Virus record (IMG/VR): IMGVR_UViG_3300049893_002132
Location: 1 to 23,174 of that record
DNA: 23,174 bases
DNA from: a virus
Reading direction: 5' to 3' (one strand)
This document shows, piece after piece, positions 1-17,353 of this stretch. The stretch's first letter is position 1; every line of letters begins with the position of its first letter. The notes under the pieces are model-generated. The model worked only from the letters and a program-made list of their open reading frames with translations. It was not told where the DNA came from and searched no databases. The position numbers were made by a program, and so were the translations under genes.

Positions 1-903
1 CAACCTGCCCGCGTTAAGTGCAGCGGTGTACTGCCTGACCATCTTCTCATCCTCCCACCGCCCGAACTCCTGGACCAGCCGCGTCGGCGCTCCCTGCTCG
101 ATCAGCAGGCAGGCAAATGCCCGTCTGAAACTATGCGGGCTGACCCCGGCTACCCCCGTCCGTTTCCCAAGATTGGACAGGATGCGCCCCAGGCCGGACG
201 GCGTGAGCGGCTGCCCAGGATGAATCCCCCCGATAGCCACAAAAACGGTCTCCACCTTTGGCCCGGCAATTCTGATCGCTCGCCATTCCTCAAGGAGCGT
301 CACCGTCTCCGGCCCGTAATGCCCCGGCTCCTGATTACCGCCCTTGACGATCACCTTCAAGCGCAGGTGCGCTAAATCCAGGTCGTCCCAGCACAGCCGG
401 CACATCTCCGCCGCCCGCAGCCCGGAATCGACCAGGAGCGAGACCATCGCCGCATTACGCCGCCCCGCTGCTGTCTGATCGCAGCCGTCCAACAGCATGG
501 CAATCTCGGCGGCCTCTAAAGTTCTCTGGATGCGTTTTTTCACGGGCGGGAGTTTGAGACAATCCCGCAAATCTTCCCCGATGGCATGTTCTTCGTCGTA
601 CAGCCAGGCCAGCCAGGCTCGCGCGGCGCTGATCGCTTGTTTGACTGTAGGAGCCTGCCACCCCTCCCAGAGCGAGGCCCCCCATTCCCGCAGCAGGCCT
701 CGTGATAAACCTGCTGGGTCAAACACATCGCGCTCCGCCAGCCAGCGGGCCAGCCGTTCCAACTGCCAGGTATATTGTCTGACCGTTGTCGCGCTCAGGC
801 CCTCTTGCCGGGCCGCCGTCAGATATTCGGCAATAGATAGATCGAGTTTGGTTAAGTGAAATCCCAGATCGGTAACGGGTTGCAATGGAACACCTGTACA
901 CAT
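1..903 (-). CDS. int: Tyrosine recombinase, phage integrase (3' end off window)
   Basis: This is a site-specific recombinase that would integrate and excise the phage. The frame is open from an ATG at 903-901 to the left edge, 301 codons, so only a short C-terminal tail is missing. The N-terminal SAM-like core-binding domain spans about residues 20-105. The catalytic domain shows R163 in SGLRAAEM, K187 in VIVKGG, H257-S-F-R260, W283 in FGRW at the second His/Trp position (Cre also uses Trp), and nucleophile Y292 in VRQYTAAL. There is no obvious Shine-Dalgarno upstream of the ATG, so a downstream start such as TTG at 885 is possible. The gene diverges from the early operon. It lacks the extra helix between motifs II and III that marks integron IntI proteins, so it reads as a phage/XerC-like integrase and not as the enzyme that built the attC array to its right. 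Confidence 0.93.
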   Translation of the reverse strand, partial: MCTGVPLQPVTDLGFHLTKLDLSIAEYLTAARQEGLSATTVRQYTWQLERLARWLAERDVFDPAGLSRGLLREWGASLWEGWQAPTVKQAISAARAWLAWLYDEEHAIGEDLRDCLKLPPVKKRIQRTLEAAEIAMLLDGCDQTAAGRRNAAMVSLLVDSGLRAAEMCRLCWDDLDLAHLRLKVIVKGGNQEPGHYGPETVTLLEEWRAIRIAGPKVETVFVAIGGIHPGQPLTPSGLGRILSNLGKRTGVAGVSPHSFRRAFACLLIEQGAPTRLVQEFGRWEDEKMVRQYTAALNAGRL

Positions 904-914
904 TCTAACACAGG
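893..914. promoter_or_regulatory. Candidate operator dyad over integrase start
   Basis: CCTGT (893-897) and ACAGG (910-914) form a 22-bp dyad with a 12-base spacer in the divergent integrase/early-operon gap. The dyad covers the integrase start codon. Such placement suits a repressor or Cro-like site, but no repressor gene is recognisable nearby and the short arms could arise by chance. Confidence 0.25.
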
Positions 915-963
915 CCGACTTTATTATCAAGTACCAATTTCAAATAGAAAAGGAGTCGAGTTT

Positions 964-1677
964 GTGGAACCTAGCCAAATAGCCAGCATCACCCGCAGCC
1001 TGAAAGGAGCACCTGCTATCTGCTTGATTGCGATGCAGCTTCTAAACCGGCGCACCGGCAGAGAAGAACTTACCATGCTTACCGGATACTCAGAGAAACC
1101 TATCACAAAAGCCCTGCGATTGCTAGAAGTCTACAGGTTAACTTATAACGATAGGCGTTATCAGGGTTGGCAGCTTACCGATCTGGGGCGACAATTGCCA
1201 CTTTTCATAAAGTCGCTTGGCGAGTCGCTTGGCGAGGGGGAAATTCCCTCTCCCGGTAGTAGTAGTAGTAAAGAATCTATATTAATAGATTCGCGCTCAT
1301 GTGTGCGTACACACAAAGAGTCTTTAAAACAACTACAACTGCAAATCGAGGGGGAAATTCCCTCTCCCGCCTTACCTGATAATCCCGCCTTTACTCGATT
1401 GACTGACCTGCTGATTAAACGATGCGGTACTGCTCCCGCCAAAGCAAAGGAAGCGATCAGCCAGGCTCTTAAATCTGGTGATGAACCCTCAACCTTGATC
1501 TATGACATTCTAACCTGGCTGGCTTACTGTCAATCAGAACAGGGTAGGGGTAGCAAACCAGCCACCCTAATTCCGGCCCGGATACGCGAGGGTATTCCCC
1601 CTCCTGAGTTTTTTCAGGCCCCAATTGGCGTTGAATTGGAAATTCAAAGATTACAAGGAGAATTTCTATATGACTAA
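964..1677 (+). CDS. Winged-helix protein, candidate lambda O-type replication initiator
   Basis: This 237-residue protein opens the early operon. The GTG at 964 is chosen because AGGAG (951-955) lies 8 bases upstream; an upstream in-frame GTG at 856 would overlap integrase coding and has no such site. Residues about 33-56 resemble a helix-turn-helix (EELTMLTGYSEKPITKALRLL) followed by a wing to about residue 73 (YNDRRYQGWQLTDLG), as in MarR-like or replication-initiator winged helices. The middle, about residues 88-136, is a low-complexity linker with two EGEIPSP motifs encoded by an exact 23-bp repeat. The C-terminal third is helical and ends with a related REGIPPPEF motif. The layout of N-terminal DNA-binding domain, linker containing iteron-like DNA and C-terminal domain resembles lambda O, but no sequence homology to O can be claimed. 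It could instead be an early transcription regulator. Confidence 0.55.
   Translation: MEPSQIASITRSLKGAPAICLIAMQLLNRRTGREELTMLTGYSEKPITKALRLLEVYRLTYNDRRYQGWQLTDLGRQLPLFIKSLGESLGEGEIPSPGSSSSKESILIDSRSCVRTHKESLKQLQLQIEGEIPSPALPDNPAFTRLTDLLIKRCGTAPAKAKEAISQALKSGDEPSTLIYDILTWLAYCQSEQGRGSKPATLIPARIREGIPPPEFFQAPIGVELEIQRLQGEFLYD
1233..1369. repeat. Two exact 23-bp direct repeats flanking an A+T-rich tract
   Basis: Positions 1233-1255 and 1347-1369 are identical 23-mers, 114 bp apart and in the same reading frame. Each contains an inverted repeat, GAGGG and CCCTC around an AAATT core. A degenerate third copy begins near 1587. Between the copies lie a short AGT run (1257-1269), a 7-bp-arm hairpin (1274-1291) and a 6-bp-arm TGTGTG/CACACA hairpin (1300-1315). 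This looks like initiator-binding iterons beside an unwinding region. Confidence 0.5.
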
Positions 1678-1858
1678 AAAACATCCATCCCACCGTGAGG
1701 CATGCGCCTCTTGCCAGGCCGGGCACTGCTGCGGCCACTGCTGGTGCTGCTATGACCGTGACCGGCAGGCAGTGAAAAAAGGTGAATTTTCTGGTAACTC
1801 CTGGAGCGGCGCTCGCCCCGGAAAATCATCAAGGGAGGTGAAAAAATGCAAACTCTAG
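1670..1858 (+). CDS. Cysteine-rich mini-protein, putative zinc knuckle
   Basis: This is a 62-residue protein starting at ATG 1670, with AAGGAG at 1655-1660. The start overlaps the 3' end of the winged-helix gene and the end overlaps the start of the methyltransferase-like gene, so it is translationally coupled on both sides. Residues 12-27 contain CASCQAGHCCGHCWCC, seven Cys and two His in sixteen residues, which strongly suggests zinc or other metal binding. The rest is basic and probably disordered. I do not recognise the family. A small nucleic-acid-binding or host-takeover protein would fit the position, but this is inference. Confidence 0.6.
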   Translation: MTKKHPSHREACASCQAGHCCGHCWCCYDRDRQAVKKGEFSGNSWSGARPGKSSREVKKCKL

Positions 1859-2475
1859 CCTATGACGGCTCATCTTTTGAAAAGTTAGCAATCCTGGATG
1901 TATCACAAGAATCATGGTTACAACCATTCAACTACAAGCGCGACACCAAAAGCGCCCGCCCTGCTGACATCTACACTCCGCAGGGTTACGACGCCTGTCA
2001 AACTCCAGCCTATGCCATTGATCCACTTTTGCCCTATCTGGTAGAGGGTTGGAACATTTGGGAGCCAGCAGCGGGCGAAGGGTATCTCGAAGGCGCACTT
2101 TACGACAGCGGATTTAGTGTCATTCCTTCTGACATCCTGACCGGCCAAAATTTCTTTGAGTTTGAGCCGGATAGTTGGGATTGCCTGATTACCAATCCGC
2201 CCTTTAGCGTCAAGTACAAATGGCTGGAACGATGTTATCAACTCGGCAAGCCCTTTGCCCTGCTGATGCCGGTTGAAACGTTGGGCACCAAAAGCGCCGC
2301 AGTTCTGTTTGAGGAGTTTGGTACCGAGATCATCTTTGTGCGGCCGCGCATCAATTTCAAAATGCCCAATAAAGGTTGGGATGGCGGCGGCGCTCAATTT
2401 CCGGTGGCCTGGTACACCTGGAAGTTAAACATCGGGCGGGCAATGATCTTTGCCAAAATCAAGCCCGAAGAATAA
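1846..2475 (+). CDS. DNA N6-adenine methyltransferase-like protein
   Basis: This 209-residue protein has an amino-methyltransferase core. The SAM-binding motif I is EPAAGEG (residues 73-79) and the catalytic motif IV is NPPF (117-120), the form used by N6-adenine DNA methyltransferases. The start is ATG 1846 with AAGGGAGGTG just upstream, overlapping the preceding small gene. It lacks a recognisable target-recognition domain and is shorter than restriction-system enzymes, as is common for phage solitary methyltransferases. The likely role is modification of phage DNA for protection from host restriction or for timing. No cognate endonuclease lies next to it. The target sequence cannot be read from the protein. 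Confidence 0.8.
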   Translation: MQTLAYDGSSFEKLAILDVSQESWLQPFNYKRDTKSARPADIYTPQGYDACQTPAYAIDPLLPYLVEGWNIWEPAAGEGYLEGALYDSGFSVIPSDILTGQNFFEFEPDSWDCLITNPPFSVKYKWLERCYQLGKPFALLMPVETLGTKSAAVLFEEFGTEIIFVRPRINFKMPNKGWDGGGAQFPVAWYTWKLNIGRAMIFAKIKPEE

Positions 2476-2534
2476 TCACGCTTCATTTTACAAGACTTAT
2501 CAGTACCAAAATCAGCCGCGAGGAGGCGGCATCT

Positions 2535-2729
2535 ATGAAAAGAAAAACCGTCAAAATCATAATCGAAGGCGAAGTAGAAATGGTCGAACTGGTGGCCGCC
2601 AGTATGCGGGCCATCTTCCAGGTCGCCGAGGAAAGCCGGAATATGACGATCCATCTCCGGCCCAGCGACATTCGCCGGACCATGCGTATCCTGCCTCTGT
2701 CTGATCCGCTGGAAGATAAGGTGGCCTGA
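2535..2729 (+). CDS. Small protein of unknown function, 64 aa
   Basis: The start ATG 2535 is supported by GAGGAGG ending about 8 bases upstream; longer in-frame starts would overlap the methyltransferase. The protein begins with a basic strand (MKRKTVKIIIEGEVEMVEL) and then a helix and strand, a compact alpha/beta pattern. The stop is one base before the next ATG, so it belongs to the operon. I do not recognise a family. Confidence 0.6.
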   Translation: MKRKTVKIIIEGEVEMVELVAASMRAIFQVAEESRNMTIHLRPSDIRRTMRILPLSDPLEDKVA

Positions 2730-2730
2730 G

Positions 2731-3018
2731 ATGACAACCCAACGTCGTTACAGTTTACTACATCCCGCTCTGGTCAAAATGAGCGAGGACAATGCTCAAC
2801 TGCTGGCCCGCAACCTCACCCGCGCTGAGGAAATTGCACAGCTAAAGGCTAAAATATGTCTCCTTGAGGAGCAGCGCCGTACCGCCCTTTTCAGGGTCAG
2901 CGATTGCCTTAATTTTCTGCATGACCTGCGAAATGACATAAGGGCAGCCAATGGCACCAGCATCAACGAGCAGCTTGATCGCTCAATCCAATCATTTATT
3001 GGGGATTCTCACCTATGA
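2731..3018 (+). CDS. Coiled-coil small protein, 95 aa
   Basis: ATG 2731 follows the upstream stop by one base, and the end overlaps the next gene by four bases (ATGA type). Residues about 18-70 are rich in Leu, Glu, Lys and Arg in heptad-like spacing (AEEIAQLKAKICLLEEQRR), which suggests a coiled coil and oligomer formation. A related design recurs in the 3280-3630 protein, and the two may be distant paralogues or partners. The function is unknown. Confidence 0.6.
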   Translation: MTTQRRYSLLHPALVKMSEDNAQLLARNLTRAEEIAQLKAKICLLEEQRRTALFRVSDCLNFLHDLRNDIRAANGTSINEQLDRSIQSFIGDSHL

Positions 3019-3278
3019 TTTGCCCCACGTGCCATCGCTCTAAACCAGAAACCCATTTTGAGAATCAGCAAGGCCGCCAAATCCGGCTCACCCGCGATTG
3101 TCTCGCCTGTCGTATCCGCAGGCAAGAACGAAAGAATGATCGCAAGCTGATAAATCATCGTGGGGAGGAGCGATATTGGCTCAGAGATCGGGCCGGCCTG
3201 GATTGTCTCAACTGCCCGCTGTCAGAATGTGTTTTTGTTATCAACCACCCCGCTAAATTATGTCCAAAGGAGAATTGA
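3015..3278 (+). CDS. Zinc-finger-like small protein, 87 aa
   Basis: The start overlaps the stop of the coiled-coil gene (ATGA). An N-terminal CPTC (residues 3-6) and a later CLAC (about 29-32) make a two-knuckle Cys4 zinc site followed by the very basic RIRRQERKNDRK. A second pair, CLNC and a following Cys, lies near residues 64-71. The pattern resembles N-terminal zinc modules of some phage HNH or recombination proteins, but no HNH core is present. It probably binds nucleic acid. Confidence 0.6.
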   Translation: MICPTCHRSKPETHFENQQGRQIRLTRDCLACRIRRQERKNDRKLINHRGEERYWLRDRAGLDCLNCPLSECVFVINHPAKLCPKEN

Positions 3279-3279
3279 C

Positions 3280-3630
3280 ATGAGTGAAAATCGTATCCGC
3301 TACAACATTCCAAATGACCAGCCCGTTAGCACTCCGCGGCACCGCCGTTATCGCCGACTCAGCCCTATTCAGCTAAACGCAGAGAATGAGTTATTGGTCC
3401 AGCAGTCGCTGGACCGGGCCGCGGAAACTAACGAGTTGCGGCTCAAGATCAGGGAAATGGAGTTCACCATCATGCGGCTGAGCGATAAATTGGCAATTTT
3501 AACCAGCGCCGCCCGCGAGGTCATCGCCGCAGATGAGGCCATCCTTGCCATCGGCGGCTTTGACCCGGCCAAAGACTTCCGCTTTGAGCGGGCTATCAAC
3601 GATCTAAAAAATATCGTGAGAGGAAATTAA
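3280..3630 (+). CDS. Coiled-coil small protein, 116 aa
   Basis: ATG 3280 has AAAGGAG at 3266-3272. An in-frame start further upstream would overlap the zinc-finger gene and has no comparable site. The N-terminus is basic (TPRHRRYRRLSPIQLNAENELL) and the middle, about residues 35-85, is a heptad-like helix (ETNELRLKIREMEFTIMRLSDKLAIL). The sequence -LSPIQLNAENELL- parallels -LHPALVKMSEDNAQLL- in the 2731 gene, suggesting an old duplication. The function is unknown. Confidence 0.6.
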   Translation: MSENRIRYNIPNDQPVSTPRHRRYRRLSPIQLNAENELLVQQSLDRAAETNELRLKIREMEFTIMRLSDKLAILTSAAREVIAADEAILAIGGFDPAKDFRFERAINDLKNIVRGN

Positions 3631-3632
3631 AT

Positions 3633-3824
3633 GTGAGTTTCACCCGCTGCCCGTTGGGGCATAAAATTAACCTGGATCATGGTAAAACCTGCCGGGTCTG
3701 CCAGCAAAATAAAATTAACCGCGCAGCCAAGCGCAGCCAGCCCCCGGCACGGAGACACATCTACCCGCAGTATTACAGATGGTTGAGGGAGATTAAGGCA
3801 GAGGTCAGGAGGATAAGCGGATGA
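3633..3824 (+). CDS. Small basic CxxC protein, 63 aa
   Basis: The likely start is GTG 3633, with AGGAAA about 9 bases upstream. Residues 6 to about 24 hold CPLGH and CRVC, a plausible single zinc site. The remainder is rich in Arg and Lys with aromatic residues (RRHIYPQYYRWLREIK). The last codons overlap the next start (ATGA), so it is in the same operon. It probably binds nucleic acid; the family is not recognised. Confidence 0.5.
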   Translation: MSFTRCPLGHKINLDHGKTCRVCQQNKINRAAKRSQPPARRHIYPQYYRWLREIKAEVRRISG

Positions 3825-4144
3825 CCCTCACCCAAATCGCTCTGCTCATGCGCCGCGAGGCCAGGGCCGGAGGCCGGGCGCAGCATAAATTAGAACGGGG
3901 ATTGACACTCACTCTCTGGCAGGACGGCGGTGATTGGATACTCAGCCTGACCCGCAAGGGCCGACCGGCCAGCGAAACCGAAATCATTATCTGCAGACAA
4001 TGGTTTGAGATTCCGGCATCGGCAGCGATTGAACAGGATCGGGTAGGCCAGTACCATATCATCCGGCTAAGGTGGAGCGAGGCGGCGGCCGAGCAGTTGC
4101 CATTGATCGAGCCAGAGAAGCCGAATCAGTACAAATATGATTAA
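3821..4144 (+). CDS. Protein of unknown function, 107 aa
   Basis: ATG 3821 overlaps the previous stop. The protein begins with a short helix (MTLTQIALLMRREARAGGRAQHKL), continues with a strand-rich stretch (LTLTLWQDGGDWILSLTRKG) and ends in an acidic tail. It is the last gene of the overlapping early operon. Its TAA stop (4142-4144) lies inside the TAAC that begins the hairpin region before the cassette array, a placement often seen at integron cassette ends. No family is recognised. Confidence 0.6.
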   Translation: MTLTQIALLMRREARAGGRAQHKLERGLTLTLWQDGGDWILSLTRKGRPASETEIIICRQWFEIPASAAIEQDRVGQYHIIRLRWSEAAAEQLPLIEPEKPNQYKYD

Positions 4145-4202
4145 CATAAATCCTTCCGTCCTAAAGTTTAGGGCGGAAAGATCAATCTAAGAATTGTTAG
4201 GT
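4139..4202. other. Left boundary hairpin of the cassette array (attC-like or entry site)
   Basis: A 12-bp stem, 4154-4165 against 4167-4178 with one G-T pair, lies between a TAAC (4142-4145) and a core-like GTTAGGT (4196-4202), which is where the first cassette begins. The outer TAAC/GTTA spacing and hairpin resemble a short attC of about 64 bp, but the usual pair of extrahelical bases is missing. It could be a degenerate attC, an attI-like entry point, or a terminator of the early operon; no T-run follows the stem. Confidence 0.45.
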
Positions 4203-4207
4203 GGATT

Positions 4208-4429
4208 ATGGGAGCATATATAGCATTACGTTGCCCCGATTGTGGGCGTGAAGCCGTGTATAACGGAGCCGGATTTTGCACTTGTGGAGCGCAGCTTATT
4301 GCCTTTTGGGAAAGAATGAATCGTGGGCGTGGGCGGCCTTATGATTCAAGTCGTCGCGTTTGGGTATGGGAAAATGGATCGCCCAGACTTTTTAATGATC
4401 CTAAAAACCGCCTTGAAAGAAAAACATAA
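4208..4429 (+). CDS. Cassette protein: zinc-ribbon, 73 aa
   Basis: This is the first cassette gene, starting 6 bases after the GTTAGGT core. AGGTGG of the core itself is the only ribosome-site candidate. Residues 9-12 (CPDC) and about 24-26 (CTC) form a short zinc ribbon (ALRCPDCGREAVYNGAGFCTCG). The C-terminal half is basic with aromatic residues (RGRPYDSSRRVWVWENGSPRLF). It could be a nucleic-acid or protein adaptor. It has no recognised family, like most cassette genes. Confidence 0.6.
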   Translation: MGAYIALRCPDCGREAVYNGAGFCTCGAQLIAFWERMNRGRGRPYDSSRRVWVWENGSPRLFNDPKNRLERKT

Positions 4430-4439
4430 TGGACTATTT

Positions 4440-4502
4440 GTATTATCGTACCATGGCTTTTTATTGTCTCATCATGGCCCAATATTATCGTACCATGGTT
4501 AT
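4440..4502 (+). repeat. Three 21-bp tandem repeats
   Basis: Units 4440-4460, 4461-4481 and 4482-4502 share TCRTNNCATGG-type cores; the first and third units share an exact 16-mer (4441-4456 and 4483-4498). They lie in the 3' untranslated part of the first cassette. In one plus frame they would encode three heptads of the form (V/L/I)LS(Y/H)HG, but that frame has no supported start. They are probably a minisatellite. Confidence 0.6.
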
Positions 4503-4548
4503 CATCCTGCGGTTGATAGTAAAATGTTTGCGTTGGTTCTTGAAATCC

Positions 4549-4656
4549 GCCTAACAAGGCAATCAACCCGACGCCCGACTCAGGGCCATTGGAACTATCG
4601 GAACAAACTAAGTAAATTTATTACGCGGGCGCGGGTTATTGCCCGGCTCGTTAGGC
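4549..4656 (+). other. attC: attC site A (108 bp)
   Basis: The site runs from R'' GCCTAAC (4549-4555) to R' GTTAGGC (4650-4656). The inner arms pair as AAT/ATT, AACCCG/CGGGTT and CGCCCG/CGGGCG. They leave an unpaired C at 4564 and A at 4571, six bases apart, on the top strand. On the folded bottom strand these are G and T, as in classical attC sites recognised by IntI. The central loop is about 48 bases. Confidence 0.92.
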
Positions 4657-4662
4657 GGATAG

Positions 4663-5040
4663 ATGAGCCACCAAGAAAATTATGAGGATTATTTAAAAAG
4701 TGACCATTGGTATTTTATGATCATTCTCAAACGCCTTCAGGTTGATAATAAGTGCGAAATTTGCGGAAGTTCTCACGGTCTTGAGGTACACCATCTAACC
4801 TATGAGCGATTAGGCAATGAAAATCTTGAGGATTTACAAGTTCTATGTTCCTATCATCACAAAAAAGTGCATGGCATAGAAAGTCTTGTGAAACAATTAA
4901 TGAAAAGGAAACGGGATATTTTAAAAAACTTAATTGTGTTTTGTTATCCACCTGATAAATTAATGGGCAATCCGCCTAACAAGGCAATCAACCCGACGCC
5001 CGAATCAGGGCCGTTGGAGCAATCGTCAAAATCGAAGTAA
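4663..5040 (+). CDS. Cassette protein: HNH endonuclease, 125 aa
   Basis: This is a small HNH nuclease with a zinc-stabilised beta-beta-alpha metal fold. It shows C31-E-I-C34, the catalytic H43-H44, N54, C62, H65-H66 and H70, in the usual order CxxC, HH, N, CxxHH. It is the second cassette and starts 6 bases after the attC core; AGGCGG of the core is the only ribosome-site candidate. About the last 21 residues (NKAINPTPESGPL...) are encoded by attC site B and so are a cassette by-product, not part of the nuclease fold. The domain covers about residues 1-85. It may act as a homing, defence or packaging-linked nuclease; the context gives no single answer. Confidence 0.85.
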   Translation: MSHQENYEDYLKSDHWYFMIILKRLQVDNKCEICGSSHGLEVHHLTYERLGNENLEDLQVLCSYHHKKVHGIESLVKQLMKRKRDILKNLIVFCYPPDKLMGNPPNKAINPTPESGPLEQSSKSK

Positions 5041-5081
5041 TTTTATTACGCGGGCGCGGGTTATTGCCCGGCTCGTTAGGC
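4974..5081 (+). other. attC: attC site B (108 bp)
   Basis: R'' GCCTAAC (4974-4980) and R' GTTAGGC (5075-5081) bound arms nearly identical to site A, with top-strand extrahelical C at 4989 and A at 4996. The site has the same length as site A and most loop positions are shared. The two cassettes therefore probably came from one host array with homogeneous attC sites. The HNH stop codon is within the loop. Confidence 0.93.
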
Positions 5082-5106
5082 GGCTTCCGTCGCCAAGTGA
5101 GGAAAG

Positions 5107-5307
5107 ATGCAACAGCGATATTATTTTGAAATTGAAAAACGAGATGATAATCCTCTAACTTTCGCGTACATTTGGCGGGCAGAGGACGATGCTACCACCG
5201 CACCACCAGTAAAGGAATTTCACTCTGCGCGGGATGGCGATGAGGCTTTTAGGCGAGTTACCAAAAAGGCCGTGAAATGGATAAACGAGCACGGTATTTT
5301 TGTGTAG
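5107..5307 (+). CDS. Cassette protein of unknown function, 66 aa
   Basis: This is the third cassette gene. The ATG at 5107 has GTGAGGAAAG immediately upstream, an independent ribosome site. The protein is an alpha/beta-like mixture: MQQRYYFEIEKRDDNPLTFAYIWRA suggests two strands, and EAFRRVTKKAVKWINEHG suggests a C-terminal helix. It ends just before attC site C. The overall look is of a small double-stranded-RNA-fold or HicB-like antitoxin-size protein, but there is no motif to prove either. The function is unknown. Confidence 0.65.
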   Translation: MQQRYYFEIEKRDDNPLTFAYIWRAEDDATTAPPVKEFHSARDGDEAFRRVTKKAVKWINEHGIFV

Positions 5308-5311
5308 CGCC

Positions 5312-5414
5312 GCCTAACAATGGCTTGCACGCGACCGAGCAACCGCGCCTTTTCACGCAAGGCGCTCTAATTAACGATGGCACTCCCGGCGCGTGAAGCC
5401 GGGGGGCGTTATAC
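5312..5414 (+). other. attC: attC site C (103 bp)
   Basis: R'' is GCCTAAC (5312-5318) and R' is GTTATAC (5408-5414). Arms pair as GGCTT/AAGCC, CACGCG/CGCGTG and CCG/CGG, leaving unpaired G at 5327 and A at 5334, again six bases apart. R' differs from R'' because R' belongs to the next cassette, whose own R'' is GTATAAC. The arm sequences differ from sites A and B, so this cassette has another source. Confidence 0.9.
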
Positions 5415-5428
5415 GGCAGAAGACACGC

Positions 5429-6007
5429 ATGTTGATACTTGATTTGGGTAGCGGGCTTGGTGGAGCGAGCCAGGCAATGAAAAAAAGGGACTGGCAGGTA
5501 ATCACGGTTGACATCAATCCTGATTTTCACCCTGATATTGTGGCCGACTTGCGAGAGTTTCATTACACCGGCCCGCGCCCTGATTTGGTCTGGTGTTCGC
5601 CGCCGTGTACTGAGTTTGCAAAATTCGCTATGCCCTGCTGGTACAACCTGGCTGATTTGCCCGCGCCGGATATGTCCCTGGTCGAAGCCTGCAAACGGAT
5701 TATAGACGAATGTCAGCCGCGCTATTGGATTATTGAAAATGTACGGGGCGCTGTTCCATTTTTTGAGCCGCTTTTGGGTAAGCCGACTGGCATTTTTCGG
5801 CCCTATTTTCTGTGGGGCCATTTCCCAAATATCGGTAAGCCTGGTGGTTGGGGAACAAAAACCAAAAAACTTCCCTCAACCGCCAAAGCAAAAAGGGCAG
5901 AAATACCAATGCAGCTATCTTTTGCAATCGCAATTGCTATTGAAAGCCAGATGGAACTGCCGTATAACAATTCGTTGCAGCCGAATGGCTACCGGTCGGG
6001 TTTTTGA
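5429..6007 (+). CDS. Cassette protein: DNA cytosine-5 methyltransferase-like, 192 aa
   Basis: The start is taken as ATG 5429 because an in-frame start at 5393 lies upstream of the cassette boundary (5409). Residues 3-12 (ILDLGSGLGG) match SAM motif I, D28 follows the second strand, S57-P-P-C60 carries the catalytic cysteine of motif IV, and E103-N-V is motif VI. At 192 residues it lacks a full target-recognition domain and motif X swap, so it is a minimal phage-type Dcm-like enzyme or a relative that methylates another substrate. The final residues (from about YNNSLQ) are encoded by attC site D. It probably modifies phage or host DNA, giving protection from restriction. Confidence 0.78.
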   Translation: MLILDLGSGLGGASQAMKKRDWQVITVDINPDFHPDIVADLREFHYTGPRPDLVWCSPPCTEFAKFAMPCWYNLADLPAPDMSLVEACKRIIDECQPRYWIIENVRGAVPFFEPLLGKPTGIFRPYFLWGHFPNIGKPGGWGTKTKKLPSTAKAKRAEIPMQLSFAIAIAIESQMELPYNNSLQPNGYRSGF

Positions 6008-6085
6008 GCATTATTTGCTGGCGGCGTGGTTTTTAAGCAATCTATCTTTGCTGGCCCGCCATCGGCTGAACTTTATCTGTTAGGT
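5962..6085 (+). other. attC: attC site D (124 bp)
   Basis: R'' is GTATAAC (5962-5968) and R' is GTTAGGT (6079-6085). Arms pair as GTT/AAC, CAGCCG/CGGCTG and ATGG/CCAT, leaving unpaired G at 5977 and A at 5984, six bases apart. R'' is the exact complement of the cassette's own start (GTTATAC at 5408), as expected for a cassette inserted as a circle. The methyltransferase stop codon is inside the site. Confidence 0.88.
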
Positions 6086-6091
6086 GCTCGT

Positions 6092-6439
6092 ATGCCATTC
6101 AAACGTGACAGATACCCGGAAAATTGGAAAGAAATCAGTCTCTCCATTCGCAACCGCGAGGGATGGCGTTGCAAATGGTGCAGCGCCGAAAATGGCAAAA
6201 TGCACCCGGAAACAGGTTCTAAAGTCGTTTTAACGGTGGCGCATCTTGGAATAAAAAGGCCGGATGGTTCGCCAGGAGATAAACACGACAAAATGGATGT
6301 AAGGCCGGAAAATCTGGCGGCTCTATGCCAGCGGTGTCACCTAAATTTCGACCGTGATGAACACACCTTAAATGCCGCGCTCACTCGCAGGCAGCGCAAA
6401 ATTGATGCGGGTCAAATGCTTCTGCCGGTGTCCGAATAG
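6092..6439 (+). CDS. Cassette protein: HNH endonuclease, 115 aa
   Basis: This is the last cassette gene, with ATG 6092 seven bases after the attC core. An earlier in-frame start lies inside attC site D and is unlikely. The HNH fold shows C27-K-W-C30, H51 in LTVAHL, N74 in PENLAALC, C79-Q-R-C82 and H83. Single HNH proteins of this size are frequent in phages and cassettes. It is not closely similar to the 4663 HNH protein (AHL instead of HHL, wider spacing), so the two arrived separately. No attC follows its stop. Confidence 0.83.
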   Translation: MPFKRDRYPENWKEISLSIRNREGWRCKWCSAENGKMHPETGSKVVLTVAHLGIKRPDGSPGDKHDKMDVRPENLAALCQRCHLNFDRDEHTLNAALTRRQRKIDAGQMLLPVSE

Positions 6440-6481
6440 CGGTTCATAATACCTTGCAATCAACGCAGACTGAATTAAATT

Positions 6482-6507
6482 GGCCCGACTGCTTTTCCAG
6501 CCGGGCC
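6482..6507. other. Hairpin in the 6440-6571 gap
   Basis: A 10-bp stem (6482-6491 with 6498-6507, one A-C mismatch, loop CTTTTC) lies downstream of the last cassette. No T-run follows, so rho-independent termination is doubtful. The 132-bp gap shows no recognisable attC core, which leaves the last cassette without a visible right boundary. Confidence 0.4.
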
Positions 6508-6571
6508 GACCAGGGTGACTGGGAAGAAACCCCGGTTGAAGCGATTATAACACAAAAGAAAGACTGGGAAA

Positions 6572-7255
6572 ATGCAAACCAATCTAACCGCTATTGCCAA
6601 AGCTTACTTTGGCAGCGCCGCCTTTTTTACCATCGCAGGGGAAGGACTGATGTACCTCTCCGCCCGCGCCCATTGGCTAAACAACCCTGATTATCTCTTG
6701 CCCGTCATCGGCTCATTTTCTGTCCCCGCCCTGCCCTTTGGCTTTTATCTCGCCGCCCGCGTCGCCCGGCTGACTCAACCCCCTGCTAGGCCCGGCCCTA
6801 GATGGCCGATGGCTACATCTACCCTGGCCTCACTCGCTCCCTGGTTCGTGCCACCCCAAACCCCGCGGGGCACCGCCTGGGGCCTGGAACATCCAGAGGA
6901 ATTGACCGGCAAACCGATCCGTTACCCCCGCGAGCCGAACCGGGTAGAATTTGTATTTTACGAACCGGGGATGCGCAGCCAGATCAGCGAAAGCCGTCTA
7001 TACGATTTCTGCAAAATAGCATGGCGGAGGCAGCAGCAAGTCCACTTTGGCGGCCTCGCCAGCAATCGGGTCATGAGCCGCGAATATTTTACTAAAGAGG
7101 CTCGCCCGCGCTTCCCAATGCCCGCCTATCAAAGCTGTATCTACATCCTCGATACCCGGCGGCTCATTATCAACCGCTACAAGGGCGGTGAGTTATTTTA
7201 CACGCCGGGGATCACCGTAGAAGAGGCAATGAAACGTTGGATTCATCCCCCGTAA
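6572..7255 (+). CDS. Two-helix membrane protein of unknown function, 227 aa
   Basis: The N-terminal quarter holds two hydrophobic segments, about residues 12-30 (YFGSAAFFTIAGEGLMYLSA) and 42-65 (LLPVIGSFSVPALPFGFYLA). A Pro/Arg-rich linker follows, then a soluble domain of about 130 residues with aromatic and basic patches. The hydrophilic part is likely cytoplasmic, attached to the inner membrane. The ribosome site is weak (GGGAAA). It could be a superinfection-exclusion or replication-anchoring protein, both common for phage membrane proteins, but nothing in the sequence decides this. I do not recognise the family. Confidence 0.6.
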   Translation: MQTNLTAIAKAYFGSAAFFTIAGEGLMYLSARAHWLNNPDYLLPVIGSFSVPALPFGFYLAARVARLTQPPARPGPRWPMATSTLASLAPWFVPPQTPRGTAWGLEHPEELTGKPIRYPREPNRVEFVFYEPGMRSQISESRLYDFCKIAWRRQQQVHFGGLASNRVMSREYFTKEARPRFPMPAYQSCIYILDTRRLIINRYKGGELFYTPGITVEEAMKRWIHPP

Positions 7256-7294
7256 CCGATCCCGACTAACCCGTTTCTCTTTTTCCAACTAGTA

Positions 7295-7362
7295 CAGGTT
7301 GAACCGGGTTTTCCCGGTTGATATAGGTTCAACCAGGTTGAAACAGGTTGAAAAAGGTTAGA
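7295..7362. repeat. Phased AGGTTGAA repeats with perfect hairpin
   Basis: AGGTTCAA, AGGTTGAA, AGGTTGAA and AGGTTAGA begin at 7325, 7335, 7345 and 7355, exactly 10 bp apart. A further AGGTTGAA begins at 7296. Between them AACCGGG-TTTT-CCCGGTT (7302-7319) is a perfect 7-bp-stem hairpin, and GGTTGAA (7297) is inverted against TTCAACC (7329). Helical phasing suggests cooperative protein binding, as in an operator or iteron cluster. Confidence 0.6.
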
Positions 7363-7378
7363 AAAAGGACCGTGAAAA

Positions 7379-7603
7379 ATGTCTACCTATTTAGTTTGGC
7401 GGCGAGAACCTACCGCCGATAATATTCAAATGGCTCTAAGCCAATTTCAGGCCAGGCTAAACAGCCGGCCCGAATCAATTACCACCAACCCAAAGGACGC
7501 TCCCGCTGTGGCAATGCTGGCTCCGGGGCTGGCTGTACAGACGACGGGCGGTTGTCTCAAGAATGAATTTTGGCTAAAGGTGAAGGAAATTGACCCAAAA
7601 TGA
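7379..7603 (+). CDS. Small protein of unknown function, 74 aa
   Basis: ATG 7379 has AGGA at 7366-7369, nine bases upstream. The gene lies directly downstream of the phased repeat cluster and may be controlled by it. The sequence suggests a short helix (NIQMALSQFQARL) between strands, with a C-terminal WLKVKEID strand. There is no recognised family. Confidence 0.55.
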   Translation: MSTYLVWRREPTADNIQMALSQFQARLNSRPESITTNPKDAPAVAMLAPGLAVQTTGGCLKNEFWLKVKEIDPK

Positions 7604-7632
7604 AACAATCTCTAAGACCACCCGCAATTAAG

Positions 7633-7732
7633 CCTTCTGCACCCCTTCTGCACCCCCTAGAAGCGTCCAAAATACCAAACTTGACCCATAAGACCTATCT
7701 AATCAAAATCACCGCCTGCACGCCTTCTGCAC
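7633..7732. repeat. Three copies of CCTTCTGCAC between genes
   Basis: Exact decamers begin at 7633, 7644 and 7723, with a partial copy (CCTGCAC) at 7715-7721. They lie in the 145-bp gap before the 7749 gene. Two are 11 bp apart. They could be a binding site for a phage regulator, possibly the HTH-like protein that follows. Confidence 0.5.
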
Positions 7733-7748
7733 GGCCAGGAGAGGAGCT

Positions 7749-8168
7749 ATGATAGATCAGCTAAAATCAATTTATCAACACGTCTATGGCGACCTGTCCG
7801 CACCGGGCCGCCTCGCCAGCCTGGAAGAATTAGCCGGGGCGCTCTCCAAGATTGTCCACAAAGAGCCACCCTGGACCGCCCGCTATCTCAACTCCATTAT
7901 CCTCGGTCACAAGGGATTTACCGTCACCGCTGAGTTACGCCAGGCCATTGAGGTCTATGCCGCCCGGCTTGACGATGCCCACCCATTGCAGGCGCTGCTA
8001 GTCGAGATCACCGCCTTTAGCATCAACGGCTCGGTACAGCCCGGCTCGATCATCACCGGCCACTCTAAACGCTGTGACTGCGGCCTGCTGTTTGTCCCCC
8101 ATCATCCGCGCCAGAAATATTGCTGTTTGGAGTGCCCGCAAAAGCCGGGCCGAAAAGTGGCAAAATAG
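7749..8168 (+). CDS. Protein with HTH-like N-terminus and zinc ribbon, 139 aa
   Basis: AGGAGAGGAG lies just before ATG 7749. Residues about 20-75 (LASLEELAGALSK...WTARYLNSIILGHKGFTVTAELRQAI) are helical with spacing like an XRE-type helix-turn-helix. The C-terminal part has CDCGLLFVPHHPRQKYC with a following CxxC pattern, a short treble-clef or zinc-ribbon like those used for "C..C......YC...C" nucleic-acid binding. It is probably a DNA-binding regulator of the phage; the upstream repeat cluster is a candidate site. The family is not recognised. Confidence 0.6.
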   Translation: MIDQLKSIYQHVYGDLSAPGRLASLEELAGALSKIVHKEPPWTARYLNSIILGHKGFTVTAELRQAIEVYAARLDDAHPLQALLVEITAFSINGSVQPGSIITGHSKRCDCGLLFVPHHPRQKYCCLECPQKPGRKVAK

Positions 8169-8180
8169 GAGAATTGACTT

Positions 8181-8459
8181 ATGCAACCCGCGAACCTTAG
8201 ACATTTAGAGTTGATCTTCCCCGCCGCCGTCTCCCCCGGTGATATGGAATTGATCGCCCCCGCTGGTAGGGACAAACCAGGCCAGGCCGTACTACTAGCC
8301 GCCCGCGTCGAGCGATGCAACGAAACCTGCTGTCGGGTCTATTCTAGCAATGGCGGAGCATTTATCGGCATTACTGCCGAGGAAGACCCCTGGTGGCCTT
8401 ATAATTCAGCTTATTGGCTACAGGAGGATTACGCAATATACCCTGTACCCCCCCATTGA
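8181..8459 (+). CDS. Protein of unknown function, 92 aa
   Basis: This is the last rightward gene, with AGGAG upstream of ATG 8181 and 12 bases after the previous stop. It has a probable small beta-rich fold (HLELIFPAAVSPGDMELIAPA, AVLLAARVERCNETCCRVYSS) and an aromatic tail with many Trp and Tyr residues. No family is recognised. It ends 46 bases before the convergent late-gene stop. Confidence 0.6.
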   Translation: MQPANLRHLELIFPAAVSPGDMELIAPAGRDKPGQAVLLAARVERCNETCCRVYSSNGGAFIGITAEEDPWWPYNSAYWLQEDYAIYPVPPH

Positions 8460-8505
8460 AGAACTCTTAACTAAAATCGCTCAATAAACGCAAATAAAGC
8501 GGAGT

Positions 8506-8826
8506 TCACAACTCAACAGCAATTCTATTTTTAATTGCGGTTTTGAGTTGTGCTTCTGTGCGAGCAGTTAAACCAGCCCGTACTCGCAATGTGTTTATCT
8601 CGTCCAGCATCACCAACGCTAACGCCTCGATAATTTCATCGAGCAATTTCCACTTAAAAACTTTGGTATCAATCTCGTCGGGTATTAAAAAATCTGGCTG
8701 ATGAAAATACAAAGGATGCGCCAATTGACCATCAGGCAAACGCAACCGATGAGGAGCCGTCAACAATTCCCGTACTTCCGGTGTGACAATCAAATAACCC
8801 GGTCTTGTTGGATGTTTTACAATCAT
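8506..8826 (-). CDS. Last late-operon protein, 106 aa, unknown
   Basis: The start overlaps the tail-fibre stop by four bases, so it is co-translated with it. The first half is beta-like with a Pro-rich segment (HPTRPGYLIVTPEVRELL, HPLYFHQPDFLIPDEID); the second half is two helices. Its position after the fibre suggests a fibre-assembly chaperone, a lysis gene or another late accessory protein; no hydrophobic holin-like helix is visible. I do not recognise the family. Confidence 0.6.
   Translation of the reverse strand: MIVKHPTRPGYLIVTPEVRELLTAPHRLRLPDGQLAHPLYFHQPDFLIPDEIDTKVFKWKLLDEIIEALALVMLDEINTLRVRAGLTARTEAQLKTAIKNRIAVEL
8507..8552. terminator. Nested inverted repeat at the convergent junction
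   Basis: An outer arm pair CACAACTCAA/TTGAGTTGTG (8507-8516, 8543-8552) encloses an inner pair GCAATT/AATTGC (8519-8524, 8533-8538) with a T-rich loop. It overlaps the last codons of the minus-strand gene and lies just after the plus-strand early module, so it may act as a two-way terminator. No T-run follows either outer arm. Confidence 0.5.
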
Positions 8827-10832
8827 GTGATAATTACCTCATCAATATACGCCTCATGATATTGTGGGAAAACATAATGGCGCACCGTCTTGAAGTTAGA
8901 CGGATATCCGGCTACAGCTGGCCCGCCATTTGTCACCAGCGCCCCATCACTCACATAGATTAGATAGCTGAATGTCCCCCCAGCAGATAAGGCTGCGATA
9001 ACATAATAATCCAGCCCAGGCACCCAGGGCGTTTCTGCTGTTTTTGAGCCGTTCGTTGTCGTAAATGTGGTGCCGGTTCCATACCAAACCGAAACCTGAA
9101 ATGGAAATTGTGTTCTTGTTGAGCCGTACCAAATCCAGCGAATTGCCCAATATTTATCAGACCCGCCCGGTGCTTGGACATCCCAGAATCGCAACTCCGA
9201 TACCAACACATCGGACGCAGACGTATAAGGCGATAGACTCACCAGCGTTTCCTGGCGTGTTTTGGCTCCGCTAGCTGTCCATTGGTTATACACCGTCGCT
9301 GATGCGTCATAATTATAAATCCTGAGCCAATGCAAGCGAGTGCTGGATAACGCTCCGCAGTTTGCTCCTACGGTGAGCGAGAATCCACCCGGCGAGCCGC
9401 CATACGAGTATGGTGAAGATTGGCTGTCCTGATAACCTGCAATATCGCTAGTAAAAGCATTGACCTTAAAATTGCGCCGGGTAAACCCGTAGGAATTGGC
9501 CGGCTTATCGTCACCGAAGAGGTTCTCTAGCCGAGCGTTTAATCCATTGGCTGATGCCTGGGGAAAAATATCTCGCGTACTGTTGCCGGTCAATTGTCCC
9601 GCTGTATCGGTTTGCCAGGCCACAGCCCCGCCATCTGATTCCCATAACTGAGAGACTTTGCCCGAATCCAGCGCAGTCGTAGCAAACGCTGAGGCGTGAT
9701 TGCCGTCGAGCAGGTCCGCATCCAGGCCACTTCCCGTACCGTCTACCGTCTTGATCTTGGTCAGAATACTATCGGCGGTCATCACCAACTGGCCCGGAAA
9801 TTCCAGGCGGCTGTAGGTCACGCCGTCGTAATAAATCGCCACTGTTGGATCACTGCCTACCCCGCTAGGCGATGACAGGATTTTGACCACCAGCCTATCG
9901 GTCAGGTCCAGGTCTACCTCCGCAATCGCCACTTCCATATCGTACTCGGTTTCAACCGCCCCAACGCTGACAATGGCATCGGTCGTGGCGATTAGCGTCT
10001 CCGTCCCGCCGGAGGTGCGCCGGTAAATGCGGGCAAACAGGGAGGCGACCTTTGTCCCCCCGGTTTTGGCCGCGTGGCAGTGAACGTGGTACACCCCATC
10101 GGTCAGGTAATCCAGGCCCAGGCCGACCGAGGCTGAGGCAAATTCCTCAATGACCGTATTCGCGCCGGTAATCGAGGCCGAAACCGTCTGCTTGCTCCCG
10201 GTCGGATGCGCTTCGGTCATCGCCTTGTAGCCGCCGATGTCGCTGGCCGCAGTTACAAAAAACTGCAAGAGCAGGCCGCTAATGCTCAAATCATCCAGGT
10301 GATCCAGGGCTAATTGAACCGTATTCTCGCTAGCCGAGAGGTTGCCGTCGAAATTGGTGGTGTCAACAGAAATGGCCGAGGCAGCCGGGGCGCTGTGGCT
10401 GTGCCCGGCCACCGCAAAGGCCGCCGCCTCATTCCCATCGAGCAGGTCCGCGTCGAGGCCGGAGGCCGCCCCGTCTACATTTTTGACTTTGGCTAAAACG
10501 TCGCTGTCCTCATAGTCCGAGGTTAGCACGTAACCCGCTATGGCCCCGGTCCCCCCCTGGCTATAAACCACAAATAAGCGGTAGCTGGCAAAATAGAGCA
10601 CATCTACAAAATCACCAACCTGGACATTTCCTATTTGCCCCTTCCAGCGGCATCTCTGCTGATTATGTTGGCCGACCCGCGCCTCAATCCAGCCATTATT
10701 GGCAGCGTAGAGGTTCCTGTCGGTAATATCCAACACCTCACAGCCGGGGATCAGGTCGGGAGGAGTGAACAACCCCGCCATTTCATCGGCCAATGCCCGA
10801 ATTTGCTCAGATGTTTTAGCTGAGAGACTCAA
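8823..10832 (-). CDS. Tail fibre / receptor-binding protein, 669 aa
   Basis: The start is a TTG at 10832, supported by GGAGG (10839-10843) six bases upstream; it overlaps the hub-like gene's end. Residues about 25-100 look like a baseplate-attachment beta domain. Two copies of a fibre repeat, D-G-x-x-S-G-LDADLLDG-N-x-x-A-F-A, lie near residues 120-140 and 370-390; this LDADLLDG repeat is common in phage tail fibres. Collagen-like or helical stretches are absent. The C-terminal about 200 residues are rich in Tyr, Trp, Gly and Ser (YGGSPGGFSLTVGANC..., WIWYGSTRTQFPFQVSVWYG), consistent with a jelly-roll receptor-binding tip. It would decide host range. Confidence 0.8.
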   Translation of the reverse strand: MSLSAKTSEQIRALADEMAGLFTPPDLIPGCEVLDITDRNLYAANNGWIEARVGQHNQQRCRWKGQIGNVQVGDFVDVLYFASYRLFVVYSQGGTGAIAGYVLTSDYEDSDVLAKVKNVDGAASGLDADLLDGNEAAAFAVAGHSHSAPAASAISVDTTNFDGNLSASENTVQLALDHLDDLSISGLLLQFFVTAASDIGGYKAMTEAHPTGSKQTVSASITGANTVIEEFASASVGLGLDYLTDGVYHVHCHAAKTGGTKVASLFARIYRRTSGGTETLIATTDAIVSVGAVETEYDMEVAIAEVDLDLTDRLVVKILSSPSGVGSDPTVAIYYDGVTYSRLEFPGQLVMTADSILTKIKTVDGTGSGLDADLLDGNHASAFATTALDSGKVSQLWESDGGAVAWQTDTAGQLTGNSTRDIFPQASANGLNARLENLFGDDKPANSYGFTRRNFKVNAFTSDIAGYQDSQSSPYSYGGSPGGFSLTVGANCGALSSTRLHWLRIYNYDASATVYNQWTASGAKTRQETLVSLSPYTSASDVLVSELRFWDVQAPGGSDKYWAIRWIWYGSTRTQFPFQVSVWYGTGTTFTTTNGSKTAETPWVPGLDYYVIAALSAGGTFSYLIYVSDGALVTNGGPAVAGYPSNFKTVRHYVFPQYHEAYIDEVIIT

Positions 10833-12892: not shown

Positions 12893-13743
12893 AATTCAAT
12901 CCACGTTACCGGGCCATCTGTATCCGCCCGCATCGCCGGTGCGTCGTCGCTGTAAAACAGCCAGCTGCGCCAGGCATCGCTGCCATTTTGCCATTCCGCC
13001 GCCGCAAACAGCCGGTCTCCAGCAAATTGCAGCGCGCTAAATACCAGATCATCCACATCCGGGGCGGGGTCATCAGACCAGGTGTTAGTCACGCTGGCTG
13101 GATTTTTCTTGACCCAACTGCCGCCGCCGTCGTTGGAAACATATAATCCGCCGCCTGTCGCCGCCCAGATCGTCTTGTCGTCGTCATCCTGGTTTTGAGT
13201 GGCCGGATCAATCTTCAAATCGTTCACTGTCAGCGCCGCCCCGCTCAACCCCGTATTTTTGGCCGTCCAGGTCTGACCCCCATCGTCGGTAAAATAGACC
13301 CCGGTCGAGGTGCCGATAAAATATTTCCCGGCTGCCTCCTGCACCCGCATCGTCACCCTGGCAGGGCTGGACCGCAGCCCCGTCCCATCCGTCACCACCA
13401 GTTTGACCTCATACTCCCCCGCCGCCGCCCATGAGACCGTGCCATCATCGGCGGTGCTGCTCGACGGCGTTCCGCTGGGGAAGGTCCAGGCCCAACCCGT
13501 CACCGTCCCATCGGGATCATACGAATCGGTTCCATCAAACGTGATCGTGTCCCCAGGGAAGGCCGGATTAGGCGATAGCCGCAGCACCGCTACCGGATTT
13601 TTGCCCTCTACCGTACCCATCTCATTGGGATCGGTGCAGCAAAAAAAACGAGGCGTGAAAACCGGCCCTAACTGGCTGCCGAAGCGCCAGGCCGTCGCCC
13701 CTTTTAATTTCTCAACTAATTCAGCACTCAGCGGAGCCGTCAT
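12889..13743 (-). CDS. PKD-domain and BNR-repeat tail protein, 284 aa
   Basis: Residues about 48-133 form a PKD domain (PVAVLRLSPNPAFPGDTITF, then SYDPDGTVTGWAWTF and AGEYEVKLVVTD, the classical PKD signatures). Two Asp-box repeats follow: VYFTDDGGQTWTAKN and LYVSNDGGGSWVKKN, with a third, weaker one near the end. PKD and propeller repeats occur on extracellular proteins and phage adhesins. It overlaps its neighbours on both sides, so it is part of the tail-tip operon. It shares the propeller-like architecture of the next protein, and the two may form one complex or a split propeller. Confidence 0.72.
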   Translation of the reverse strand: MTAPLSAELVEKLKGATAWRFGSQLGPVFTPRFFCCTDPNEMGTVEGKNPVAVLRLSPNPAFPGDTITFDGTDSYDPDGTVTGWAWTFPSGTPSSSTADDGTVSWAAAGEYEVKLVVTDGTGLRSSPARVTMRVQEAAGKYFIGTSTGVYFTDDGGQTWTAKNTGLSGAALTVNDLKIDPATQNQDDDDKTIWAATGGGLYVSNDGGGSWVKKNPASVTNTWSDDPAPDVDDLVFSALQFAGDRLFAAAEWQNGSDAWRSWLFYSDDAPAMRADTDGPVTWIEL

Positions 13744-14081
13744 ACCACTACCAATATCTCCAACTCCACCCCGGTGATGGTCAGATCGCCCGGCATATCA
13801 AAACTCTTGATCTTCCGGCTGACTACCCCTGAGCTATAAACCACGTCGGCAGCCGTTGGCCTCGCCCCCGGTGCAAACGCCTGGAGACTGGTCAGTACCT
13901 GGTTTTCATAGGTTTGCCAATTGAATGTCTGGCCCACCAGAATCGGCGCTGAAATGCGGAACAACTTATAAGCCCCCAGGGCATCGGTGCCATCCAGTTT
14001 ACCGCCGCTGATCGTCTCCTCCCACCGCGCCGCCGCCGGCTGAGGTGATAATTCCGTTCCATTTATCTCAATCGTCGCCAT
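13740..14081 (-). CDS. Small distal-tail-like protein, 113 aa
   Basis: It lies between the tape measure and the tail-tip proteins, where distal-tail components sit. The sequence is beta-rich (MATIEINGTELSPQPAAARWEETISG... VELEILVVV) and ends in a strongly hydrophobic strand, fitting a compact beta sandwich. The stop overlaps the next gene by four bases. There is no family-level match I can name. Confidence 0.55.
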   Translation of the reverse strand: MATIEINGTELSPQPAAARWEETISGGKLDGTDALGAYKLFRISAPILVGQTFNWQTYENQVLTSLQAFAPGARPTAADVVYSSGVVSRKIKSFDMPGDLTITGVELEILVVV

Positions 14082-14101
14082 ACCTGCTACCTGCCAACCT
14101 G

Positions 14102-15865: not shown

Positions 15866-16188
15866 TATTGCCCGCCCAGGCGTTTGTGCCACTGCTGCAC
15901 AGCCGCCAATTGCTCAGCCATAGATTGTCCCCGGTCCTGTTCAAATTTCGGCATAAACACGGTGGGGTTGACTGGCTTGCTGCCCTGTTTCCGGTTCACG
16001 TTGGCAATGGTCGCGGCCACTATCGCCGCCTGAATATCGCCCCGCATATCCCCAAACGGCTCTATACTAAAAAATGCCGCCCACTCTGTTAGTTCCCGGC
16101 TGCTCATCCTGGCCAGCCCCCACTCTACCGAAGGCCAGCCCAGGGCCAGGGCTAAACGGAAGTAGAATCGCCGTTCGGGCCGCTCGTA
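15865..16188 (-). CDS. Tail assembly chaperone T part, expressed by -1 frameshift
   Basis: From 16188 the -1 frame is open to the stop at 15865 (107 residues), starting YERPERRFYFRLALALGW. Later residues include MSSRELTEWAAFFSIEPFG, the pattern typical of gpT-type or DUF4035-like extensions of tail assembly chaperones. An internal ATG at 16107 exists but lacks a good ribosome site. The fused G-T product would have 122 plus 107 residues. It acts with the tape measure in tail assembly and is not in the finished virion. Confidence 0.78.
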   Translation of the reverse strand, partial: YERPERRFYFRLALALGWPSVEWGLARMSSRELTEWAAFFSIEPFGDMRGDIQAAIVAATIANVNRKQGSKPVNPTVFMPKFEQDRGQSMAEQLAAVQQWHKRLGGQ

Positions 16189-17002: not shown

Positions 17003-17353
17003 CTAGTGTGAAATCAACAACGCCTTACCGGCGATGTCGCAATCCACATAAACCTTGCCATCGGTCTGTTTGTAAACCGAGGCCAGCTTGACCAGGGCCG
17101 TGTCACCGGCCGCTACCGCTACGGTATCATCCGGGATCGTCGCAATGCCGCTGTACGTGCTGGGTGTCGGCACTTTGATTGTAAATGCCGCCGCGCCCCC
17201 GGTTGTGTTTTTGAGCAGCAGCAGATGTGCCGGATTATGGGTAAATTCCACCCCGTTTCCCGCCCCGGTTGACAGCGTAGTAAACGCCGCGCTGTCGGTC
17301 AGGTTGTAGGCTTCTCCCGGCACTGCCACTGCCGTTATCGTCGCTCTTGCCAT
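17003..17353 (-). CDS. Tandem paralogue 2: putative tail/capsid surface protein, 116 aa
   Basis: It has the same length as the neighbour at 17391-17741 and is clearly homologous (GAGNGVEFTHNPAHLLLLKN, FTIKVPTPSTY, LVKLASVYKQT, VYVDCD shared). It is probably a beta sandwich with loops (TLSTGAGNG, TPSTYSG). It lies between the tail-terminator and tail-tube genes, so it may be a decoration or minor tail protein. The leader (AGAAGGAGATTTA, about 17355-17367) is nearly the same as the leader of the tail-tube gene. No family is recognised. Confidence 0.6.
   Translation of the reverse strand: MARATITAVAVPGEAYNLTDSAAFTTLSTGAGNGVEFTHNPAHLLLLKNTTGGAAAFTIKVPTPSTYSGIATIPDDTVAVAAGDTALVKLASVYKQTDGKVYVDCDIAGKALLISH

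Follow-up and report, generated by a model that had tools for sequence, protein, structure and literature searches.

The window, a linear IMG/VR virus record of 23174 bases (IMGVR_UViG_3300049893_002132, G000; probably a fragment), carries at 4197-~6440 a five-cassette integron array, placed in the early operon of a phage. The array has no integrase of its own; in all likelihood it comes with a docking site on the phage, and its cassettes would be exchanged in trans by an integron integrase (IntI) of the host. We infer this action in trans as the best explanation of the sequence footprint. Four attC recombination sites lie within 1.5 kb by two independent methods with no intI near, the arrangement of a cluster of attC sites lacking an integron integrase (CALIN). 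A preliminary description of the window had proposed a CALIN carried by a phage, and both methods and the phage genes on both sides of the array bear this out.

Sister phages diverge at the crossover point

Two sister phages on IMG/VR contigs, G410 (L085, 28805 bases) and G412 (L180, 34986 bases), carry evidence for exchange. In G410 the array also follows replication genes in the early operon, and its proteins are 53% (portal), 48% (protease), 57% (major capsid protein, MCP) and 52% (head-tail adaptor) identical to those of the window. G412, found in a wider capsid search, has a capsid identical to that of G410. It shows a 130-base end overlap of 99% identity and is apparently circular, with the array lying inside. 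No IntI is found in G412 (best TIGR02249 score 17.4 bits, cut-off 265).

On the early side the two sisters are 98.3% identical over 7489 bases (G410 3313-10801, G412 25166-32654), a block that ends at the array, and on the late side their nucleotide identity is 99.5–99.9%. This identity ends exactly at TCTAAATGTT|GTTA, where the bar marks the crossover, and unrelated cassettes with their own attCs lie beyond it. All 120 of 120 positions are the same before and including ...TCTAAATGTTGTTA (the junction also reads ...GAATCAGTCTAAATGTTGTT), and the sequences are unrelated after it. Past the junction G410 reads AGAGCGCAGG and G412 reads ATATTGCTAA, each being a cassette head that pairs with its own attC. 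The check proposed in the preliminary description, to look among relatives for this locus with other cassette contents, gave a positive result, with 98–99.9% identity up to G|TT and wholly different sequence behind it.

attC sites of the window

The attC sites were identified with a structure scanner built solely from published attC rules (R''/R', an L''/L' stem and two extrahelical bases) and with a covariance model, R2. R2 was trained on 28 of the 32 attCs found near intI loci of Chloroflexota and on none from the window, and is independent of the window. It was rebuilt with long loops after an earlier covariance model with the variable loop removed failed on long-loop attCs. The scanner finds exactly four attCs in the window, all on the + strand and in one orientation, with scores of 17–22. 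In 60 dinucleotide shuffles read on both strands (120 strands, 2.8 Mb) it finds one match with score 15, and in 311 kb of array-less relatives none. It recovers one attC in TJE1, for which phage attCs have been published, and no site in Polaribacter phage P12002L. R2 has no match in either of these phages and is therefore a narrow model.

R2 ranks the same four sites at the top of the window, well over background, with the next window match at 13.5 bits. They are attC1 (4549-4656; scanner 22, R2 34.1 bits), attC2 (4974-5081; 22 and 34.0 bits), attC3 (5312-5414; 17 and 26.1 bits) and attC4 (5962-6085; 20 and 23.3 bits). attC1 is 91% identical to attC2. The sites show R''/R' cores (RYYYAAC/GTTRRRY), L''/L' pairing and two extrahelical bases, which are seen in attC1 and attC2 in GGCAAT-C-AACCCG-A-CGCCCG against CGGGCG-CGGGTT-ATTGCC. 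The bottom-strand DNA fold is strong for attC1 (z -5.4) and attC2 (z -5.2) and weak for attC3 (z -1.2) and attC4 (z -1.1), so that the last two are supported by architecture and model and not by free energy. Rfam has no attC family and gave no match. The four sites of one orientation with both extrahelical bases stand as first described.

Cassettes, hybrid sites and cargo

All five cassettes read on the + strand. Cassette 1 (4197-4650) holds a Cys-rich open reading frame (ORF) of 73 amino acids (4208-4429) with no Pfam or PHROG match, and its head complements the flank of its own attC. Between this ORF and attC1, at 4436-4502, there are copies of ATTATCGTACCATGG and similar CATGG-containing stretches. 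Cassette 2 (4651-5075) encodes an HNH-endonuclease-like protein (4663-5040; phrog_1271, 1e-6), for which the Pfam HNH match is slightly under cut-off. Cassette 3 (5076-5408), between attC2 and attC3, has an ORF of 66 amino acids (5107-5307) without Pfam or PHROG family match. Cassette 4 (5409-6079) encodes a short C5-cytosine-methyltransferase-like protein (5429-6007; phrog_363 DNA methyltransferase, 2.8e-15) with visible PPC and ENV motifs and a Pfam DNA_methylase match of 6.6e-4, under cut-off. Cassette 5 (6080-6440, right edge approximate) encodes an HNH endonuclease (6092-6439; phrog_1571, 4.7e-18) and has no attC behind its ORF. For this last unit the preliminary description is corrected. 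GC skew is positive to ~6440 and negative afterwards.

A reading of the last HNH gene as phage DNA that flanks the array on its right was rejected, because the 81% identical copy in G410 is a complete cassette bounded by an attC at either end. The nucleotide homology of the two starts at window position 6079, the crossover G of attC4, and ends at 6426.

Each attC in an array is a composite, with its R'' side from one cassette and its R' side from the cassette that follows. If cassettes move as circles, their first bases should therefore pair with their own attC and not with that of the neighbor. We compared ten positions past GTT in 17 cassettes from four phages. In total 129 of 170 bases match the own attC and 83 of 170 the attC of the neighbor, while the shuffled mean is 81 and none of 20000 shuffles is as high as the own-attC count. 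attC3 (R'' of cassette 3, R' of cassette 4) and attC4 (R'' of cassette 4, R' of cassette 5) are clear hybrids, with 10 and 12 consecutive bases matching the own head and 4 matching the next. From their sequences, the cassettes are self-consistent units and the hybrid attCs point to assembly cassette by cassette. Cassette-wise movement is now backed by sequence evidence, since G410 and G412 split at G|TT, heads match tails and the HNH cassette is common to two phages.

The cargo of G410 includes HNH and an N6/N4 methyltransferase-like protein, and that of the more distant relative G444 (L125) MT-A70, N6/N4 and D12-like methyltransferases. Such richness in DNA methyltransferases and HNH nucleases suggests a plausible role in anti-restriction or competition. 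Two cassettes of G412 (25166-23974) each combine a strong promoter of sigma-70-like type with a pair of small ORFs, and in G410 a promoter like these lies behind the last attC; cassettes with two genes and a promoter are recurrent in this group of phages.

Left junction and proposed attI-like docking site

The array had been placed at 4139-6439. All four attCs are inside this range; however, 4139-4205 holds no attC and the array starts at 4196|4197. This short region contains the stop codon (4142-4144) of early gene g3821, a hairpin and the junction. The hairpin (4154-4178, +; fold of 4139-4206) directly follows the stop codon and is terminator-like. It was rejected as a fifth attC, being missed by both scanner and R2. 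The junction ATCTAAGAATTG|TTA (4185-4199, +) includes an L-box-like ATCTAAG and the G|TT crossover. For comparison, the L box of attI1 is CCCTAAA (PMC12901181).

The left junction reads ATCTAAGAATT|GTTAGGT in the window and GTCTAAATGTT|GTTA in G410 and G412. Compared with the G410/G412 junction, the window junction is the best of 628 window GTT sites, with 10 of 14 positions matching and 8 of 14 for the next site. Host attIs beside intI read, for example, GTCTAATACTT|GTTAGCC, GTCTATTTCAT|GTTGGGC and GTCTAATTAATA|GTTAGGC; these were placed by head/tail matching next to intI alone, and the L-box-like motif was not used. Cassettes begin at such a junction in two phage lineages, and its likeness to attI is above that of most GTT sites and below that of host attIs. 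The resemblance of the phage junction to a Chloroflexota attI is suggestive and has moderate support. The window has no complete integron (intI, attI and Pc), with no intI and the attI-like box alone.

Arrays in other relatives

G444 has six attCs at 485-3043, directly upstream of its portal gene, together with three distinct genes for DNA methyltransferases and one zinc-ribbon-like gene. Because this array sits beside the portal gene, arrays either entered the clade more than once or moved. Searches of viral contigs with exact and degenerate attC1 patterns match L024 alone (record G005, 39496 bases). By R2 this record has at least six attCs, at 1355-1442, 2267-2326, 4142-4199, 38342-38398, 38746-38844 and 39165-39242. 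They lie at both contig ends, and the placement looks like one array of a circular genome that was cut there. In the first pass the R2 database search found two of the six attCs in G410, and absences were re-checked directly on the sequence. Most relatives have no array among ~40 records searched, many of which are fragments, and the R2 database search misses long-loop sites.

Host of the phage

The host phylum is likely Chloroflexota. A Chloroflexota metagenome-assembled genome (MAG; J033, L020, G001) includes a contig with genes 63–73% identical to those of G412, among them a terminase-like gene (73%) and the MCP (65%). Since errors of MAG binning are possible, the assignment to this phylum is no firmer than likely. 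Other capsid relatives are in Chloroflexi, Dehalococcoidales and one Chitinophagales MAG. The preliminary description looked to a host with an intI and with attCs like those of the phage. IntI above cut-off is present in 42 of 400 Chloroflexota genomes, and MAG G001 has intI-like fragments that score 257 and 114 bits, under the cut-off for full length, with one attC beside the second. Exact and degenerate attC1 patterns matched no attC in the 400 genomes.

Proposed exchange and alternative explanations

In the proposed mechanism, an integron integrase supplied by the host during infection or lysogeny would act on the folded single-stranded bottom strand of attC. It would cut at G|TT, and cassettes would be inserted or excised at the attI-like junction of the phage or at resident attCs. 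The cassettes are oriented like the early operon, and we therefore expect them to be transcribed along with it, in place of a Pc promoter. It is an evenly balanced proposition that this phage lineage keeps an attI-like docking site without integrase and hitch-hikes on host integrons, with cassettes circulating from phage to phage. If exchange occurs in this way, a phage can gain, lose or replace anti-restriction and nuclease cassettes each time it infects or lysogenizes a host that has IntI. The locus suggests that phages turn the integron device against their hosts, carrying the passive parts and borrowing the enzyme.

Several observations weigh against this reading. A matrix of 15 host attIs ranks the phage junctions 8 of 628 (window), 23 of 990 and 18 of 847. 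Host attIs that were left out of the matrix mostly come in places 1–4; the matrix is weak and the junctions represent two phage lineages. The link between phage and host MAG depends on binning, searches of the 400 sampled Chloroflexota genomes gave no attC close to attC1, and HNH homologues in Chloroflexota are not adjacent to attCs. The right edges of the arrays are loose, with cassette 5 lacking an attC and the G410 contig ending inside its own array.

The alternative that survives best, although we consider it unlikely, is that host IntI inserted cassettes at a non-classical genomic site, with no dedicated attI-like site, and that exchange since then is mainly attC × attC. Such a site is named attG in PMC12901181, which cites Loot et al. 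2024 for it. The moderate attI similarity of the junction would suit this, and so would the position of the G444 array by the portal gene, which indicates more than one entry point. On the other hand, the junctions of two diverged phages have a common L-box-like stretch, by which the window junction ranks 1 of 628 in the direct comparison; they lie in the same early compartment, and they look like host attIs that were located without that motif.

It is distinctly improbable that homologous or illegitimate recombination with a bacterial integron brought in the whole array at once, and that it now persists as a static relic in which cassettes are not exchanged. Entry by these two routes is proposed for phage CALINs by Qi et al. 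2023 (PMC9892861). The lost attC of cassette 5 suggests that part of the array is decaying, and a site at G412 ~23366 looks by eye like a broken attC. However, the 98–99.9% identical sisters differ from an exact G|TT point, where illegitimate events would not stop, and the hybrid attCs show the pattern of cassette-wise assembly.

An autonomous phage, with its own tyrosine recombinase acting on the attCs, is very improbable. There is an integrase at window 1-930 and there are two tyrosine recombinases in G410, but the scores with the IntI model are 18.9, 39.2 and 17.4 bits, all under the cut-off of 265, and the recombinase common to G410 and G412 is ~22% identical to that of the window. A chimeric assembly of bacterial integron and phage contig has next to no probability even with the shifts of GC and GC skew at the array edges, because the same kind of phage/array junction recurs in several separate related phage contigs and G412 has its circular-type 130-base end overlap with the array inside.

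Genome context

The window, itself probably a fragment, has no IntI. This absence had been noted before and stands. The tyrosine integrase at 1-930 (-), truncated by the contig end, is of the phage/Xer type (Phage_integrase, 4.1e-29) and was rejected as IntI with a TIGR02249 score of 18.9 bits, the best on the contig, against the cut-off of 265. The window phage is tailed and probably temperate. Its early genes are on the + strand (856-8459), with the array inside them, and its late genes are on the - strand. Supported by Pfam and PHROG, the latter include the portal end (22652-23173), protease (22028-22648), HK97-type capsid (20821-22017), head-tail adaptor, tail terminator, major tail protein, tape measure (14102-15892) and fiber (8823-10832). 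Searches of viral contigs found no relatives of the early genes g6572 and g856. Between the major tail protein and the tail terminator lie tandem paralogous genes (17003-17353 and 17391-17741), 73% identical over 300 bases. G410 has a second tyrosine recombinase gene (13255-14175) that is absent from the near-identical G412. G412 has an internal repeat array with ~66-base steps (5900-6800) in a gene between portal and protease, and its copy number differs from that in G410.

Comparison with known systems

Integrons are regarded as bacterial gene-capture devices and have lately been discussed as stores of phage-defence genes. Cassettes in phages are rarely described, as the preliminary description said, yet they are already known: Qi et al. 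2023 give 17 phage CALINs, for example in Tetrasphaera phage TJE1 and Polaribacter phage P12002L (PMC9892861). According to the same paper, phage attCs recombine with IntI1 at frequencies like those of attCaadA7, and the phage cassettes include methyltransferase cassettes (PMC9892861). The window array resembles these CALINs in its attC-separated single-gene cassettes, lack of intI, methyltransferase cargo and mostly single orientation. It differs in that its site and precision point to site-specific exchange, and in its likely host phylum, Chloroflexota. Cassette swaps between near-identical sister phages would be evidence from natural populations that phage cassettes move one by one. The earlier report, in which an assay found phage attCs to be active with IntI1, could not provide such evidence (PMC9892861). 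As far as its text goes, it has no differing sister-phage cassettes at one fixed point and no attI-like docking site, and in the open-licence literature we found no sister phages diverging at an exact crossover and no attI-like site in an intI-less phage.

The window array is similar to the sedentary chromosomal integrons of Chloroflexota in attC architecture, as R2, trained on host sites, scores the window, and in the attI-like box before the first G|TT. Unlike them, it has no intI, lies in a phage operon and carries phage-type HNH and methyltransferase cassettes. The complete integrons in Vibrio anguillarum prophages (Qi et al. 2023, PMC9892861) likewise bring together a temperate phage and parts of an integron. 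They are portions of the chromosomal integron of the host and include intI, whereas the window has no integrase and separate cassettes. Sister phages that diverge at an exact crossover, next to an attI-like site, appear to be a new variant of phage CALIN.

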